The position numbers were made by a program, and so were the translations under genes. Shown here in pieces: positions 53,343 through 59,704 of a stretch of 64,000 bases of DNA (its first letter is position 1; each line of letters opens with the position of its first letter). The notes below the pieces were generated by a model that ran no database searches, had not been told where the DNA came from, and worked only from the letters and a program-made list of their open reading frames with translations. The DNA comes from Myxococcus stipitatus (lineage in GTDB: Bacteria > Myxococcota > Myxococcia > Myxococcales > Myxococcaceae): NCBI RefSeq assembly GCF_037414475.1, contig NZ_CP147913.1:4402001-4466000 (forward strand). The letters run 5' to 3'.

Positions 53343-54101
53343 ATGATGCGATGGAACGGTTGGATGCTGGCCGGCGTGGTCTTTCTGGGCGGCGCGGCGG
53401 TGGCGCAGGACACGCAGAACTCCACGGCGCCGCAGAACGGCACCGGCGACAGCCAGGGCATGATTCGCTCGGGAGAGGCGGACGCCATCGACCAGGGCGA
53501 GGACCTGCGCAAGCAAGCCCGCGAGGACCAGCCCGCGACGGGCGGCTCGGGTGAGCCCGACGCGCAGGCCCAGAAGTGGATGAAGGAGGGCCTGCTGCCC
53601 ATCCCCACCGATGAGAAGTCCTTCCTGGAGATACTGCACAGCGGGAACCAGATGGAGGTTCAGATGGGGCAGCTCGCGCAGAAGAACGGCGCGTCCCAGG
53701 ACGTGAAGGACTTCGGCGTCCGCATGCAGCGCGAGCACGGCAAGGCGGATGAGAAGCTGATGGCGTACGCGAAGAAGAAGGGCTTCCAGCTCGGTGAGCC
53801 CCAGGCGACGACGCCGCTCGCCAAGGCCATGGGCAACACGGAGCACGCCCTCATGGAGGAGCTCCAGCTGCGCCGCGGCCCCGCGTTCGACCGGGGCTAC
53901 CTGGCCGTCATGGTCGGTGACCATGACTCCGACATCGCCATGGTGATGGCCGGGCAGCAGCAGTTCGCCAGCAACACCGAGCTGAAGGGGATGCTCGACG
54001 AGACGCTGACCATGATGAAGCAGCACCGTCAGAGCGCGTACCGGCTGCTGGGCCAGGAGACTCCGCGCCAGGCCCGCCAGAGCCCTCGCGGCGGGCGCTG
54101 A
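53343..54101 (+). CDS. Exported DUF4142 family protein
   Basis: 252 residues from ATG 53343 (or 53346), with GGGAGGCAGGCG upstream. Signal peptide MMRWNGWMLAGVVFLGGAAVAQ cut after AVA-Q (given here in part). Residues about 30-80 are an acidic, Gln/Asn-rich linker. Residues about 90-235 are the helical DUF4142 domain: NQMEVQMGQLAQKNGASQDV, FGVRMQREHGKADEKLMA, FDRGYLAVMVGDHDSDIAMV. The family looks like a ferritin-like four-helix bundle, usually periplasmic and stress-linked. No partner is evident; the gene faces the kinase operon. Confidence 0.88.
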   Translation: MMRWNGWMLAGVVFLGGAAVAQDTQNSTAPQNGTGDSQGMIRSGEADAIDQGEDLRKQAREDQPATGGSGEPDAQAQKWMKEGLLPIPTDEKSFLEILHSGNQMEVQMGQLAQKNGASQDVKDFGVRMQREHGKADEKLMAYAKKKGFQLGEPQATTPLAKAMGNTEHALMEELQLRRGPAFDRGYLAVMVGDHDSDIAMVMAGQQQFASNTELKGMLDETLTMMKQHRQSAYRLLGQETPRQARQSPRGGR

Positions 54102-54111
54102 CGTCCAGCGC
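54095..54111. terminator. Hairpin between the DUF4142 gene and the kinase operon
   Basis: GCGCTG-ACGTC-CAGCGC, a 6-bp stem placed between convergent stop codons. Weak without a U tract. Confidence 0.4.
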
Positions 54112-54117
54112 TCCGGG

Positions 54118-55545
54118 CTACTCGACGGAGAGCGTGTAGACGCGCTCCGTCCCGTCCGAGAGCGACAACGTCATGCGAGTCACTCCCGGCTCCAGTGCCT
54201 TGAGCTGGAGCCGGCCGGGTGACACCTCCACCTCCACGAGGCGCGGGTCCTCCACGATGAAGTGCTGGATGCCTGGGACCAGCGACTCGCGCAGCTCACC
54301 TCTGCGCAGCTCGATGCGGTCCCCGTGCTCCTCCCCCGGGGATGAGGACACCTGCCTCATGCCGTCCTGCGCCTGACTCCAGAACACCAGGCCCAGCCCT
54401 CCTCCCAGGAAGAGGAGCAGCAGCGCCACGACCCCCAGCACCTTCCAGTCGCGTGTCACGTGGGGACGCGAGAGCGCCTGGAGCAACGCCTCCATGGAGG
54501 TGAAGCGCGACGCGGGCAGGTGCGACAGTCCTCGGGACAACGCACGCAGCACATGCTCCGGGGGACGGCCCGTGCTCGGACGCAGGCGCGGCGTCTGGGA
54601 TGGGGACGGAGGCGTCGCCGCGGGGGGCACGGCCACCCGCTGCTGCGCGGGGCGCTCGCCGTGCAGGGCTTCATACAGCGAGACACAGAAGCTGTACTGG
54701 TCGCTCCGTTCGTCCACGCGATGGCCCCGGCGCTGCTCGGGAGACATGTACGCGGGCGTGCCCAGCATGGTGCCCGCCCGCGTGAGAATCAGCTCGGTCT
54801 CATCCAGAGGAGTGGCCTCGGTCCGCCACCGCCGCACGAGCCCGAAGTCGGTGACTCGCACGCGCCCGTCCTTGCCCACCAGGACGTTCGCCGGCTTGAA
54901 GTCCCGGTGCACCAGCCCCTGGCGATGCGCCGCCGCCAGCCCCGCGCCCGCCGCGAGGAATTTCTCCAGCACCTCTCTCCAGGAGCGCTCCTTCTCTCGC
55001 AGCCACCCCGCGAGGGTCGTCCCCTCCACCCACTCCATCGCCAGATAGTCGCGGCCCTCGGCGGAGCCCAGCTCGAAGACAGGCAACACATTGGGATGAG
55101 ACACCCTCGCCATCGCTTGCGCCTCGCGCAGCAGCCGGCCCCGGCGCTCCTCCTCCACGCCCTTGCGAGCGGGGCGAAGCAGCTTCAACGCCACCTTGCG
55201 TCCCAGCCGCGTGTCGTCCGCCGCGTACACCACGCCCATTCCCCCCAGGCCCAGCATCTCTCCCAGCACGTAGGGGCCCAGCCGCGTCCCCTTCGGAAAG
55301 GCCAGGGCCGAGATGCCAAGCTCCTGTGCCGGGGGCGGCATGGTGAGCCGGCGCGTGGTGGCGTCCGCGTCATCCGATTCCGGCATCGTGCGCTCCGCCT
55401 CCACGAGCGCACGGCAGCTCTCGCAGGTGTCCAGATGCGCCGCCAGCCCCACCGCCTTCGCCGAGGGCAACGCCCCGTGGGCGAGGCTGATGAGTTCCTT
55501 CTTGTCTGGGCAGGGTGCTGGCACGAGGGGACGCTGCGGATTCAT
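54118..55545 (-). CDS. Ser/Thr protein kinase with anti-sigma-like zinc motif and exported secretin-type domain
   Basis: 475 residues. Residues about 12-50 contain the H-x3-C-x2-C motif of anti-sigma zinc domains (LAAHLDTCESCRALVEAE). Kinase domain about 90-340: glycine loop LGLGGMGVVYAADDTRLG, lysine VALKLL, catalytic HRDFKPANVLV, VTDFGLVRRW, GTPAYMSPEQ; all residues for activity are there. One membrane helix (VLGVVALLLLFLGGGLGLVFW) near 380-400, then about 70 exported residues: IELRRGELRESLVPGIQHF, VEVEVSPGRLQLKALEPGV, ending RVYTLSVE. That tail resembles the N-terminal domain of RcpC/CpaC secretin-type proteins. Last in the operon behind a paralog. Confidence 0.92.
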   Translation of the reverse strand: MNPQRPLVPAPCPDKKELISLAHGALPSAKAVGLAAHLDTCESCRALVEAERTMPESDDADATTRRLTMPPPAQELGISALAFPKGTRLGPYVLGEMLGLGGMGVVYAADDTRLGRKVALKLLRPARKGVEEERRGRLLREAQAMARVSHPNVLPVFELGSAEGRDYLAMEWVEGTTLAGWLREKERSWREVLEKFLAAGAGLAAAHRQGLVHRDFKPANVLVGKDGRVRVTDFGLVRRWRTEATPLDETELILTRAGTMLGTPAYMSPEQRRGHRVDERSDQYSFCVSLYEALHGERPAQQRVAVPPAATPPSPSQTPRLRPSTGRPPEHVLRALSRGLSHLPASRFTSMEALLQALSRPHVTRDWKVLGVVALLLLFLGGGLGLVFWSQAQDGMRQVSSSPGEEHGDRIELRRGELRESLVPGIQHFIVEDPRLVEVEVSPGRLQLKALEPGVTRMTLSLSDGTERVYTLSVE

Positions 55546-55637
55546 GTGATGTCTTGCATCATCGCAGCCTCATCCCCGGGGAGAAAGGAGGAGACTCGAG
55601 AGGTTCCGCTTGTTCTTTATTCACGGTGACAACTGCT

Positions 55638-57080
55638 TCACTTCCCCGAAACAGAGATGGTGTAGAGGCGCCTCTCACCCTGCCGGGTCCACACCAGCAG
55701 TTGGGATGCCCCCGACTCGAGCGGGGTGAGCAACAATCCATTCTCCACCACCTGAATATTCACCAGCCCCTGCTGGCCGATGGCGATGCGCGACATGCCG
55801 GAGAGCTCCAGCGTGCGCGGCTCCCCCATCACCAGTGGGAAGAAGATGTTGCCTCCCACCTTCCTCGCGGCTTCGACCTCCTGGAGGAAGGCTCGGTTCT
55901 CTTCCGTGTGCATGGGGGCCGACTCGTCCCCTCCCCACGTCCACGTGGCCAGCACCAGCAATCCCCCCAGGGACACCGCCCCCAATCCCAACCACCACGG
56001 CCTCCTGGACGGCGGGGCAGTGAGGGCCTGGAGCAAGGCCTCCATCGAGGGATGGCGCGCTCGAGGCTCGGTCTCGAGACCTCGGGACAGCGCGGCCTGG
56101 ACGTGCCTGGGGAGCTTGGATGACTTCTTCGCGTGCGCCGCCCCCGAGGGACGTGCTCCGTGGAGTGCTTCGTGGAGCGCGACGCAGAAGCTGAACTGGT
56201 CGCTGCGGGCGTCCACGGGGAGACCCCAGCGCTGCTCGGGCGACATGTACGCGGGAGTCCCCGGCGCGGCGCCTTCGCGGGTGAGGAACGTCTGTTCCAG
56301 GTCGTCCGCTGGCGGCGTGGGCGCGGCTTCGCGCGAGGTGGCGTGTGCATCGCCGTCGCCGCCGCGCCATCTCCGCGCCAGGCCGAAGTCCATCACTCGC
56401 GCGCGGCCGTCGCGGCCCACGAGCACGTTGGTGGGTTTGAAGTCGCGGTGAACCAATCCCTGGCGGTGTGCCGCCGCCAACCCCTGGCCCGCCTCGAGGA
56501 ACTTCTCCAGCACCTCTCTCCAGGGGCGCTCCTGCTCGCGGAGCCATCCGGCGAGCGTCGTTCCCTCCACCCACTCCATCACCAGGTAGTCGCGGCCGTC
56601 CTCTTGTCCCAACTCGAAGACAGGCAGCACGTGGGGATGGGACAAGCGCGCCATGGCCTGTGCCTCGCGAGACAGGCGCGCGCGGCTCTCTGCCTCCTGG
56701 TCCTCTGGCACGGGGCGCAAGAGCTTCACCGCCACTCTGCGCGCCAACCTCGGGTCCTCCGCCGCGTACACCACGCCCATGCCGCCCACGCCCAGGAGCT
56801 CCCGCAGGACGTAGGGGCCCAGCCGTGTCCCCTCGAGTCGAAGCTCTCGCGTCAGGTCTCGTGGCGGAGGACTCGCCGGGGGAGCGGACCCGGTGTTCAC
56901 GTCCGTCATGGAGCCCTCGGCCGCCACCACCGCGACGAGCGCCCGGCAGTCCTCGCAGACATCCAGGTGCGCGGCCACCGAGGAGACCTCGGACGGAGGC
57001 AGCGCTCCGCTCGCGAAGCCCGCGAGCACGTTCTCATCGGGACAGGCGAGGGACGCGGAGAAGGGTGGCAGCGGGCTCAT
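55638..57080 (-). CDS. Ser/Thr protein kinase with anti-sigma-like zinc motif and exported secretin-type domain
   Basis: 480 residues. Same plan as its neighbour: zinc-like motif VAAHLDVCEDCRALVAVV near residue 40; kinase domain about 85-345 with LLGVGGMGVVYAAEDPRLA, VAVKLL, HRDFKPTNVLVG, VMDFGLARRW and GTPAYMSPEQRWG; membrane helix (LGAVSLGGLLVLATWTW) near 375; exported tail about 400-480 (MGEPRTLELSGMSRIAIG, LLLTPLESGASQLLVWTR, ending RRLYTISVSG). The tail is clearly related to the small exported protein encoded just upstream (57163-57471). The kinases are about 45% alike by eye, so this is a recent tandem duplication. It starts 82 bases after that gene. Confidence 0.92.
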   Translation of the reverse strand: MSPLPPFSASLACPDENVLAGFASGALPPSEVSSVAAHLDVCEDCRALVAVVAAEGSMTDVNTGSAPPASPPPRDLTRELRLEGTRLGPYVLRELLGVGGMGVVYAAEDPRLARRVAVKLLRPVPEDQEAESRARLSREAQAMARLSHPHVLPVFELGQEDGRDYLVMEWVEGTTLAGWLREQERPWREVLEKFLEAGQGLAAAHRQGLVHRDFKPTNVLVGRDGRARVMDFGLARRWRGGDGDAHATSREAAPTPPADDLEQTFLTREGAAPGTPAYMSPEQRWGLPVDARSDQFSFCVALHEALHGARPSGAAHAKKSSKLPRHVQAALSRGLETEPRARHPSMEALLQALTAPPSRRPWWLGLGAVSLGGLLVLATWTWGGDESAPMHTEENRAFLQEVEAARKVGGNIFFPLVMGEPRTLELSGMSRIAIGQQGLVNIQVVENGLLLTPLESGASQLLVWTRQGERRLYTISVSGK

Positions 57081-57162
57081 GGGGTTCGTGACAGCGCGAT
57101 GATATCGCGAACCGGGCCCTGGGCCGCGCGCGGACCGCCCAGGGCCACCTCGGACGCGGAGG

Positions 57163-57471
57163 CTACTTCGTCTCGGCGGCGGCCTTCGCGCCGTCCTTCG
57201 TCACCACCACGGTGTACTCCTGCCGCTTGCCGCCCTCGCTCCACACGAGCAGCCGGGTGGTCCCCGCCGCCTTGCCCTGGATGTCGAGCTTGCCCGCGCC
57301 CAAGGTCTTCACATCCGCCGTGTCGAGGTCTCCCAGCGCCACCTTGTTCATCCCCTTCACGGTGAGCACCTGGTGCTCCCCCACCTTCAGCTCGATGCGC
57401 TCCTCCGCCGCGGCGCTCGTGCCCATCAGCACCGACGCCATCAGGGCAAGTCCCATCAGTCCGTTCCTCAT
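57163..57471 (-). CDS. Small exported protein with secretin-type N-terminal domain
   Basis: 102 residues from ATG 57471, with AAAGGACGG upstream; the longer frame is not needed. Signal peptide MRNGLMGLALMASVLMG with cleavage after SAAA. Mature part: ERIELKVGEHQVLTVKGMNK, VALGDLDTADVKTLGAG, KAAGTTRLLVWSEGGKRQEY. This is the 'pilus assembly protein N-terminal' domain of CpaC/RcpC, found here alone. It is homologous to the tails of both kinases downstream in the same operon, so it may compete with, mimic or bind them outside the membrane. Confidence 0.85.
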   Translation of the reverse strand: MRNGLMGLALMASVLMGTSAAAEERIELKVGEHQVLTVKGMNKVALGDLDTADVKTLGAGKLDIQGKAAGTTRLLVWSEGGKRQEYTVVVTKDGAKAAAETK

Positions 57472-57577
57472 GAGGTCCGTCCTTTCGTTCTTGAAGCGAG
57501 GCTCCCATGCCTGGCCTTCATCTGGGGGACACCGGCCACTTCGGTCCGTTGCACGGCCGTGATGAAAAAGTCGCCGC

Positions 57578-58546
57578 CTACGCGGTTTCCCGCAGCAAGC
57601 CCGGGAGGCTGAGGTCCAGCTGACCGCCCACCACACGCATCAGGCTGTTCAGGTCATCCACTGACAATTGGAGACGCGCCGCCAGGTGCTCGCGCGCATG
57701 CACCAGCATCTGCTGCTTCGCGTGTGACACCCAGCGCGACACCGTGGATTTGTGCGTGCGGTACATGGCGCCGATGCGCTCCAGACTCACGCCCTCCACC
57801 ACATGCAGCCGCAGCACCGTGCGCTCTCGCGGAGGAAGGTTCGCCACGGCCACCGCCAAGGCCTCGCGGAAGTCCTGGTGGTGACGCCGCCGGAGGTACT
57901 CCAGTTCGACGTCCCCTCCCAGCCCACCTTCCAGCGCCGTCCCATCCGCCTCCTGCTCCACCCGGGCGCGCCGCCCTTCCGCCCGCTGGAGATTGAGCGC
58001 CGTGCGCACCGCCGCCGCTCGCAGCCACGCGGACAGGGGCGCTGTTCCCCGATACTCGGCGATGCGTGGCTCCGCGCCCCCTTCCGTGGCGAGCAACCGG
58101 TGCCGCAACTGCTGGAGCACCTCCTCCGCGTCGACGCCGCCACCGCGGACCCGGGAGACCGCGCGAGCCACCTTGGAGAGGAAGTGCCGCTCCAACGCCG
58201 CGTGGGCCGCGGGGATTCCTCGCGCACAGGCACACGCCAGATAGAGGTCCGCCACGGGGACGTCCTGGGACGCCATCGAGGACACAGCCTCCGTCCCAAG
58301 CCGCTGGGCCAGGTACCGCGAGAAATCCTCTTCCGCGAGCACCACCTCCGGCCACGCCTCTCGTCCCACGGACACCCACGAACCCCGCGGCGCTTCAAGT
58401 CCGGACACGTCCACACCGTTCAACTCGGATAAGTGTTTCTCCAACGCTAGCAGGTGTCGGGCGAAGACCTGGGCACCGCCGTGCGGCATCGACATCCGTG
58501 CCGCGTGACCCATTCCTGGGAGGATTCCAGTCAGGCGGGCTTTCAT
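57578..58546 (-). CDS. RNA polymerase sigma-70 family (ECF-like) factor, myxobacterial type
   Basis: About 322 residues if ATG 58546 is used (MKARLTGILPGMGHAARM); ATG 58495 (MSMPHGGAQVFARHLLAL) is also possible, and none has a strong ribosome site. Region 2 is near GGGVDAEEVLQQLRHRLLAT and YRGTAPLSAWLRAAAVRTAL; region 4 is NLPPRERTVLRLHVVEGVSL followed by GAMYRTHKSTVSRWVSHAKQ, which is the -35-binding helix-turn-helix. A C-terminal ~40-residue tail (NSLMRVVGGQLDLSLPGLL) and the long N-terminus match the myxobacterial TIGR03001-type sigma factors from memory. First gene of the operon with the exported protein and two kinases. Confidence 0.88.
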   Translation of the reverse strand: MKARLTGILPGMGHAARMSMPHGGAQVFARHLLALEKHLSELNGVDVSGLEAPRGSWVSVGREAWPEVVLAEEDFSRYLAQRLGTEAVSSMASQDVPVADLYLACACARGIPAAHAALERHFLSKVARAVSRVRGGGVDAEEVLQQLRHRLLATEGGAEPRIAEYRGTAPLSAWLRAAAVRTALNLQRAEGRRARVEQEADGTALEGGLGGDVELEYLRRRHHQDFREALAVAVANLPPRERTVLRLHVVEGVSLERIGAMYRTHKSTVSRWVSHAKQQMLVHAREHLAARLQLSVDDLNSLMRVVGGQLDLSLPGLLRETA

Positions 58547-58768
58547 TGTTACAGCGAGGGGCGCCTTTTCTACAGGCCCCAAGCCCCCGGTCTGACGGCG
58601 ATGGCCCACCCGACGCTGTCCCTGGGTTCAACGTGAATGCCCACGCGGTAACGCCTGTTCGTGCTCGAAGCCACTATCGCCGAATGACATGCAACGCTTC
58701 GCGGCGAGTGCTTCCTGTCGGCACGCAGCCTGCTTCCCTCTCCCTGCATCCGTTCGGAGGGCAGGACG

Positions 58769-59704
58769 ATGAGCGAGCGCGTACAGACTCAACTGAAGAC
58801 CCTGAAGGAGACCTCGCGGTCACTGTTCATCCAGGAACGGTATTCCGAATGCGCGGAGGTCCTCGCGCGCATCGTCCGGCTGATGCCCAAGGACCCGAAC
58901 GCACGCGTGCGCCACGCCGAGATTTGCCGCCGAGCGGGAGACCGGCCCGGCGCGGTCGCCTCCTATCGCGTGGCCGCGGAGCTGCTGCTCGCGCAAGGCT
59001 GCGAAGCCCGCGCCCGTGCCGCCTTGCGCGCGGCGCTCGCGGTGGACCCTCGAGACCCTGAGCTGACCTCGGACGTCGCGCGCCTGGGCCAGGTGTCCTT
59101 GCCCCCCGCGACGGCGCTCGAGGACGAGCGGCTCTACATCACGGCCAATGACATCCTGGAGGAGCCCTCGCGCATGGAGACACGTGCGAACACGCCGCCG
59201 CCTCCACCACCCGCCTTCGTCCTGCGCGCGGCGGAAGAGACCGCCTCCGCCGGGCCGCTGCCCGCGGCGCCCACCATCGCCCCCGTGCGGATGAGGCCGT
59301 CCGATGCAGGACGCCTCCCACCTTCCTCCGGGAAGGCTCGGTGGGAGGAGCGTCCCCAGACGCCTCCCACGCTCGTCCCCGTGACGCCGTCCACGCCGCG
59401 CGCGGGAGGCGAGCCTGGCTCGGCGCCTCGAGGCCATGCTCCAGCCACCGCCACATCACGGCAGGTCGCTGCAACCCCCACGCATCCCACTCCATCGCCG
59501 CGCATCACACCCGAGCCCCCCGTGATGGGCTTTCGCCCCGAGCTCCGGTGGCTGAGTCCCAACGCCATCGCCTTGCGCTCCTCGCCTCAGTCCGCCTGGG
59601 TCGTCATCCGCGCCGAAGGCCCGCTGTCGCTGAGCCGCGCGGAGTCCGTCGTCACGCCTCCCGAGCTCCCCACGGACGACGAGCCCCTGCACCTCACCCA
59701 CTGA
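58769..59704 (+). CDS. TPR-like protein with proline-rich tail
   Basis: 311 residues from ATG 58769, preceded by CGGAGGGCAGGACG. Residues about 1-120 form three TPR-like helical hairpins (QERYSECAEVLARIVRLMPK, DRPGAVASYRVAAELLLAQG, CEARARAALRAALAVDPRDP). Residues about 140-260 are Pro/Ala/Thr-rich and low in order. The end (MGFRPELRWLSPNAIALRSS) may be a short folded part. No signal or membrane helix. Divergent from the sigma-factor gene, and 36 bases upstream of the methyltransferase gene. Role unknown; such tails often bind other proteins. Confidence 0.78.
   Translation: MSERVQTQLKTLKETSRSLFIQERYSECAEVLARIVRLMPKDPNARVRHAEICRRAGDRPGAVASYRVAAELLLAQGCEARARAALRAALAVDPRDPELTSDVARLGQVSLPPATALEDERLYITANDILEEPSRMETRANTPPPPPPAFVLRAAEETASAGPLPAAPTIAPVRMRPSDAGRLPPSSGKARWEERPQTPPTLVPVTPSTPRAGGEPGSAPRGHAPATATSRQVAATPTHPTPSPRITPEPPVMGFRPELRWLSPNAIALRSSPQSAWVVIRAEGPLSLSRAESVVTPPELPTDDEPLHLTH

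Follow-up and report, generated by a model that had tools for sequence, protein, structure and literature searches.

Two Ser/Thr kinases that are putative membrane anti-sigma factors are encoded beside a sigma factor gene in Myxococcus stipitatus, in a stretch of 64,000 nucleotides (hereafter the window; contig NZ_CP147913.1, positions 4,402,001 to 4,466,000) of a single-contig genome of 10.31 Mb; features of the window are given in its own numbering. The four genes of this locus span about 4.5 kb of the minus strand and encode, in order, a sigma factor of the TIGR03001 family, a small secreted protein, kinase 1, and kinase 2, with intergenic gaps of 106, 82, and 92 bases in the gene set of the window. 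Each kinase combines an N-terminal zinc anti-sigma (ZAS) domain, a kinase domain, a membrane helix, and a C-terminal copy of the N-domain of Tad secretins (pil_N), which also stands alone in the secreted protein. Judging from sequence, the kinase is rather probably a membrane anti-sigma factor and sensor for the neighboring TIGR03001 sigma factor. The ZAS domain would dock or sequester that sigma factor at the inner membrane, the periplasmic pil_N domain of the kinase would read the state of the envelope, and the kinase domain would convert this reading into release or activation of the sigma factor by phosphorylating itself near the ZAS domain, the sigma factor, or both. The free secreted pil_N domain would be co-expressed and would probably share a common ligand with the pil_N domain of the kinase, tuning the threshold of the switch. 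Sigma binding, the direction of the switch, and the identity of the signal are components of this scheme that we infer.

A preliminary description of this DNA had proposed four genes, for a sigma factor, an exported protein, and two kinases, and all four are present with the claimed domains in Pfam and NCBIfam. Kinase 1 (55638..57080) was delimited by Pfam, alignment, and an AlphaFold model of moderate confidence (mean predicted local distance difference test score, pLDDT, 72.4), with the ZAS domain at about residues 12–57, the kinase domain at 88–360, the membrane helix at 362–380, and pil_N at 412–478. Kinase 2 (54118..55545), which is 49% identical to kinase 1, has the same architecture with a diverged pil_N domain, as indicated by Pfam, a genome search with zf-HC2, and a profile of free pil_N domains. 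The kinase domains score 110 bits (kinase 1) and 127 bits (kinase 2) against Pkinase in Pfam; among 75 kinases compared, HRDxKxxN is found in all 75 and DFG and VAxK in 73 each, and by these motifs both window kinases appear catalytically intact. The C-terminal exported domain, across a single helix in both kinases as had been described, reaches 24.3 bits against PF13629 (cut-off 23) in kinase 1 and 18.0 bits, below the cut-off, in kinase 2, where it was found at 28.6 bits by the profile built from free domains alone. Against the PASTA kinase family NF033483 the two proteins score 215 and 195 bits (cut-off 450), with the kinase part alone matched. PADLOC matches of the window kinases resemble generic kinase matches and were set aside.

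The combination of an anti-sigma-type zinc domain, a kinase, and an exported domain in one membrane protein belongs to a conserved gene set with the sigma factor. A sigma factor, a free pil_N domain, and a kinase of this architecture occur together at 22 loci in 22 genomes. At 23 loci in 23 genomes, a free pil_N gene shares the strand of the sigma factor gene, and 22 of these also contain, on the same strand, a ZAS-kinase with a C-terminal pil_N domain; the remaining one (L083) is truncated by the end of the contig. The locus occurs in 21 of 25 genomes of this genus; two others showed the free gene alone (G004 and G012), and two showed neither (G011 and G019). Recurrence of the gene set in other genomes thus rules out a single odd case. 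Two pil_N kinases were seen in just four loci, namely the window and its close relatives L067, L068, and L069, and the other pil_N loci have one.

The N-terminal H-x3-C-x2-C motif previously noted in both kinases is borne out, and the site is fuller than was claimed, the spacing in the window kinases being C-x24-H-x3-C-x2-C. In alignment, the zinc ligands (C13, H38, C42, and C45 in kinase 1 numbering) are invariant in 16 of 16 kinases of the pil_N type, and the ligand positions are occupied in all 70 ZAS-kinases surveyed. The residue preceding H-x3-C-x2-C in these 70 is Cys at x24 in 65, Cys at x23 in one (L100), and His at x24 in four (the His judged by eye), and like these four, ChrR has His at the equivalent place in an alignment to the ZAS profile. 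Against the Protein Data Bank (PDB), the profile of 26 ZAS segments matches the anti-sigma factors DdvA (8rlz; E-value 1.2e-5) and ChrR (2q1z and 2z2s; about 1e-4), together with 3hug_B (1.4e-7), which is titled a probable membrane protein and which we take to be the anti-sigma factor RslA. RsiW, which like RsrA is a further zinc anti-sigma factor, was matched weakly (E 0.32), and two chains of other kinds than anti-sigma factors also appeared at E above 0.3. With Pfam, isolated ZAS segments matched zf-HC2 at E up to 0.1 in 25 of 26 cases; kinase 1 scores 22.4 bits (cut-off 22.2), and kinase 2 scores 18.9 bits on the protein, below the cut-off, and 22.7 bits in frame in the genome-wide search. 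The kinases therefore resemble ChrR, DdvA, and RslA in zinc-site spacing, in profile matches, and in a gene adjoining that of a sigma factor, and differ from them in the Ser/Thr kinase domain between the ZAS domain and the membrane helix. The ZAS profile also matches 8rot (9.9e-5), a CHAT-domain protein of 991 amino acids whose N-terminal segment is ZAS-like, a hint that this plan has protease-type relatives.

The pairing of ZAS-kinases with TIGR03001 sigma factors extends well beyond the pil_N loci. The family is present in 106 of 193 genomes of the phylum, and a sample of 82 TIGR03001-type sites, including the window, was read with flanking DNA, 22 chosen for a nearby pil_N domain (the window among them) and 60, from 16 genomes, for the sigma factor alone. 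A kinase lies within 3 kb of the sigma factor gene at 75 of the 82 sites and at 56 of the 60 sigma-picked sites, and a kinase with H-x3-C-x2-C before the kinase domain lies within this distance at 51 of the 60; where at least 4.5 kb could be read on both sides, a ZAS-kinase was found at 42 of 45 sigma-picked sites. The M. stipitatus genome contains 110 Ser/Thr kinase matches (a few of them split) and six TIGR03001 genes above the cut-off, and the six kinases that adjoin five of these genes all carry the motif. Its zf-HC2 search returned at least 29 matches (150 of 270 candidates scored), seven of which are in kinase frames, and the kinase of L031, with a weak motif, is an eighth ZAS-kinase. 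Fourteen weaker sigma-like loci of this genome, read with 1.5 kb flanks, served as a control; none had a kinase, and five had another ZAS protein. Comparison of the sigma-site counts with these control loci indicates that the ZAS-kinase occupies the place expected of an anti-sigma gene, and because ZAS-kinases are the usual neighbors of TIGR03001 sigma factors, it is plausible that the zinc domain holds the sigma factor.

Divergence within and between loci was also compared. Against close orthologs, the ratio of nonsynonymous to synonymous substitution rates (dN/dS) is 0.28–0.31 for the sigma factor, 0.32–0.36 for the kinases, and 0.15 for the pil_N domain of kinase 1. For paralogues within six genomes (5 to 9 pairs per genome), the distances between ZAS domains follow those between sigma factors with r of 0.61–0.89, values reached in 1 to 33 of 1000 permutations; sigma and kinase-domain distances correlate in four of the six, G000 and G030 being the exceptions (184 and 186 of 1000 permutations). 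Shared descent alone can produce such correlations.

Several observations weigh against the kinases being anti-sigma factors for their neighbors. Nine of the 60 sigma-picked sites have no ZAS-kinase: four (L032, L099, L104, and L139, the last a contig of 4 kb) show no kinase in the stretch, and five (L097, L135, L137, L141, and L145) have a kinase that lacks the motif in the frame examined, which in L097 runs past the contig end. The ZAS-kinase is on the strand of the sigma factor gene at just 33 of the 51 sites, and two of the eight ZAS-kinases of M. stipitatus (at 7988080 and 4321298) have no TIGR03001 match nearby. It could be argued from these two kinases and the nine vacant sites that the zinc fold is generic, the kinases signaling elsewhere and the sigma factor being a mere neighbor; we consider this very improbable, since it accounts poorly for ZAS-kinases at 51 sites picked by the sigma factor alone and for the motif in every M. 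stipitatus kinase beside a TIGR03001 gene. Further points on the same side concern the domain itself. Whole-protein Pfam searches returned zf-HC2 at E up to 1e-4 in just 4 of 10 further ZAS-kinases, and dN/dS is 0.73 for the ZAS segment and 0.50–0.96 for the free gene, both being short with few sites. Across 29 diverse pairs, the sigma–ZAS correlation (r 0.30) is lower than the sigma–kinase correlation (r 0.50). Classical anti-sigma domains comprise helices 1–3 and a fourth helix that wraps the sigma factor, whereas the kinase 1 model contains helices at residues 16–24, 29–39, and 43–57 (block pLDDT 65–73, down to 47 at residues 51–60) and no fourth ZAS helix, with residues 55–75 below pLDDT 50; the ZAS domain may therefore dock rather than sequester the sigma factor. 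Finally, G012 (L070) and G004 (L071) keep the free gene and its upstream element, described below, and have neither sigma factor nor kinase in 16 kb. This persistence lends no support to the role of competitor or ligand that the preliminary description offered for the free domain.

The sigma factor (57578..58495) is a protein of about 305 amino acids with N- and C-terminal extensions, identified by NCBIfam, Pfam, and ortholog starts. It scores 269.7 bits against TIGR03001 (Sig-70_gmx1, "Myxococcales family 1"; cut-off 154.6), and in Pfam region 4 is above the cut-off and region 2 is weak. Its gene had been begun at 58546, which is probably too early: the ATG there shares the last base of the conserved element at 58574–58546, and orthologs begin level with residue 18 of that frame, for which reasons 58495 is probably the likelier start. 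The tetrad of region 2.2 contains at least two acidic residues in 79 of 82 sigma factors and one in the other 3, and reads DAEE in the window.

The acidic tetrad bears on whether the kinase simply switches the sigma factor on by phosphorylation, the ZAS domain being a mere docking site. In the ECF43 pairs EcfP/PknT and EcfK/PknS, a Ser/Thr kinase gene likewise stands beside that of an alternative sigma factor, and activation proceeds in this manner according to passages of two reports (PMC8999054, PMC13147305). The intact kinase motifs would suit such a mechanism, as would Ser301 and Ser313 of the C-terminal extension (numbered from the 58546 start), which are Ser in 76 and 70 of 82 sigma factors, respectively, and the Ser or Thr found inside the region 2.2 tetrad in 25 of 82. 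However, ECF43 sigma factors lack the acidic region 2.2 motif, as stated in a passage of PMC8999054, whereas the TIGR03001 sigma factors compared here retain it; the sigma factor therefore need not be phosphorylated there for activity, and an EcfP-type mechanism is not implied. Furthermore, the conservation of the zinc site exceeds what docking alone would appear to need, and activation purely by phosphorylation is in our judgment unlikely.

Within the anti-sigma reading, a narrower version may be put forward tentatively, namely that the kinase phosphorylates only its own ZAS domain or linker and so frees an unphosphorylated sigma factor. A related case, in which a kinase acts on a ZAS anti-sigma factor paired with a sigma factor, is described in parts of PMC8999054 and PMC13147305 for Mycobacterium tuberculosis, where PknB phosphorylates RshA and the sigma factor, SigH, is released, although kinase and anti-sigma factor are separate proteins there. 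Kinase 1 offers a low-confidence, Ser/Thr-bearing linker (residues 55–75) after the ZAS domain; against this version, no conserved phosphosite was identified in the alignment, in which the linker differs in length and sequence.

The sensor would be the exported pil_N domain, most clearly recognized in the free protein (57163..57471; 102 amino acids), which was assigned by PF13629 (48 bits, cut-off 23), PDB profile matches, and a structure model, with a signal peptide judged by eye. The preliminary label of RcpC/CpaC-like is right as to CpaC, since the domain is that of the RcpA/CpaC secretin, and wrong as to RcpC, which is the partner that it binds. A profile of 16 free domains matches the secretins 8jvb and 9wfd (titled type II/III secretion proteins) and RcpA (8odn) in the PDB at E below 1e-9. 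The model of the free domain is a seven-strand sandwich in which 62 of the 102 residues have a pLDDT of at least 90, and Foldseek returned five matches at E up to 0.001, four to VirB9-type proteins of type IV secretion and one to an immunoglobulin (Ig) domain of the phage lambda tail, followed by many general Ig-like folds, with 9wfd at rank 23 (32% identity). Likeness to VirB9 has been reported for the RcpA N-domain, which is told apart from N0, in a section of PMC10499894. According to portions of PMC12307814, the RcpA N-domain is a monomer that binds a ring of RcpC (CpaB), and an RcpC beta-hairpin was modeled as completing the sheet of this domain, although RcpC without the hairpin still co-purified.

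In the M. stipitatus genome, the free-domain profile matched the three domains of the locus, a secretin at 59.5 kb (82.5 bits), and, weakly, a site at 2881060 (25.5 bits); PF13629 scored the latter at 23.8, barely above the cut-off, and gave four more matches below it. This protein combines a pil_N, a BON, and a secretin domain and adjoins a prepilin peptidase and an FHA-ATPase, and it is called Kil-like here because this gene content equals that described for kil cluster 1 in a part of PMC8460266, which also describes KilC of M. xanthus as a short protein that lacks N0. The free domain shares 47% identity (78 residues) with the N-domain of the Kil-like secretin and 30% with pil_N of kinase 1, and its origin as a recent copy of the neighboring kinase domain was rejected on this comparison. 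In a weakly supported tree of the short pil_N domains, a single clade holds 21 of the 28 kinase domains and no free ones. By sequence and fold the domain is thus the same as the N-domain of Tad/Kil secretins (RcpA, CpaC, KilC), and the difference is that it stands here alone or on a kinase: the secretin channel domain PF00263 is absent from the Pfam matches of the four window proteins and present in the Kil-like secretin. In G038, other free pil_N proteins (L092:6984-7640 and L090:6369-6992), one with TPR and one with a weak BON-like match, lie away from sigma and kinase genes in the stretch.

By homology, we infer CpaB/KilB as the best ligand candidate, and the M. stipitatus genome contains one CpaB match. 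A more complete scheme, which is doubtful at present, would have the kinases bear a copy of the domain with which a Kil/Tad secretin docks to its periplasmic ring protein (CpaB/KilB) and thereby report assembly of the contact-dependent prey-killing machine. Ligand binding outside would make the kinase open its own anti-sigma clamp, the free secreted domain would compete for the ligand, and such single-polypeptide anti-sigma kinases would form a general, much-duplicated sigma-control module of myxobacteria with exchangeable sensors.

Upstream of the sigma factor gene lies a conserved promoter-like element (58546..58574, minus strand), TGTAGAAAAG-N9-GCTGTAACAA, identified by genome pattern searches and alignments. 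By eye, CTGTA occurs in both halves as a direct repeat (21 bp apart), an arrangement that could also serve as an operator for a tandem-binding regulator; a match of the element to the simple sigma-70 consensus applied in a scan was rejected, as the scan found none. The element is matched once in the window. It is perfect upstream of the sigma factor gene in 6 of 23 loci (the window, L067, L068, L069, L072, and L074) and, judged by eye, in L206, a locus from a named genome; it has one mismatch in L088 and is diverged, with 5 to 7 mismatches, in twelve loci on the M. xanthus side. In L073 and L075, which have a second free pil_N gene before the sigma factor gene, close variants precede that gene (by eye). 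None was found in L089 or L111, the latter perhaps having the left half. Eight genomes (M. stipitatus and seven relatives), all picked for having the element, were searched with three mismatches allowed: each contains one perfect copy, one further match with three mismatches occurs in G008, and the backwards-pattern control gave none in the eight. The element as the mark of a larger regulon in these eight genomes was accordingly rejected.

Since the element heads the gene set whichever gene comes first, joint transcription from this shared element is suggested, and a sequence scan of 53900–58900 found no terminator-like site. In G012 and G004, the sole perfect copy lies ahead of a solitary free gene whose flanking genes resemble those of the window (judged from protein starts). 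No close sigma ortholog was found in these two genomes with a query that began one residue after the 58495 start, the best match having 41% identity, compared with 64, 68, and 82% in G026, G025, and G014, respectively. Persistence of the element without the sigma factor argues against simple control by that sigma factor.

The gene set varies from locus to locus. In L089, which comes from another family of the order, the free protein and the kinase each bear two pil_N domains. Named genomes were also scanned and yielded 13 loci, 10 of which have the sigma factor and free domain; nine of the 10 also have a pil_N kinase, and L212 is cut by a contig end. Six of the 10 (L207, L208, L210, L211, L212, and L213) come from genomes counted already, and the four additional ones are from M. 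llanfairpwllgwyngyllgogerychwyrndrobwllllantysiliogogogochensis, Archangium lansinium, A. violaceum, and a Myxococcaceae metagenome-assembled genome. The most distant 3 of the 13 loci have a ZAS-kinase without pil_N. The record containing L210 (BNCN01000009.1), titled Comamonas sp. KCTC 72670, holds a myxobacterial locus and looks mislabeled. In L069, the gap between the sigma factor and free genes is larger and holds two inverted copies of a transposase cluster, presumably IS66-like; in L067, the 5 kb between them, examined for GC-rich frames alone, showed none.

Outside these loci, other C-terminal parts take the place of pil_N. Among the 51 ZAS-kinases at sigma-picked sites, our own profile found pil_N on one (L111) and not on the other 50. 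Pfam searches of 14 other sigma-adjacent ZAS-kinases found TPR repeats in seven (L030, L033, L034, L093, L094, L105, and L112) and nothing recognized beyond the kinase and zinc domains in six (L031, L098, L102, L138, L143, and L144). The remaining one, L108:7425-11345, which adjoins a TIGR03001 sigma factor, is fused to an nSTAND1 (STAND) NTPase and an FGE-sulfatase domain. The two M. stipitatus ZAS-kinases away from TIGR03001 matches also carry TPR (L225:4177-7266 and L226:7062-10385). On their domain content, the window kinases are one sensor variant within a modular series of ZAS-kinases. The author of the preliminary description knew of kinase-controlled sigma factors but not of this full architecture, and no description of a sigma factor with a ZAS-kinase was found in the literature searched, in which subscription papers are thinly covered, so that an earlier mention is possible; yet the architecture is one variant of a widespread class.

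To our knowledge, few partners are known for the sigma factors and kinases of Myxococcaceae. The average member of this family has about 55 to 65 sigma factors (in a portion of PMC7694542), and the rule that one sigma family stands beside ZAS-kinases provides testable partners for many sigma factors and kinases. The ZAS-kinases would unite in one protein two routes that are usually treated apart, anti-sigma factors and kinases. The pil_N variant also points to a candidate for the signal, namely the step at which a Tad/Kil-type apparatus docks in the periplasm. In M. xanthus, such an apparatus kills prey on contact, as described in a part of PMC8460266. Taken together, the gene set suggests a direct line from the cell envelope to gene expression in a large and little-described family.

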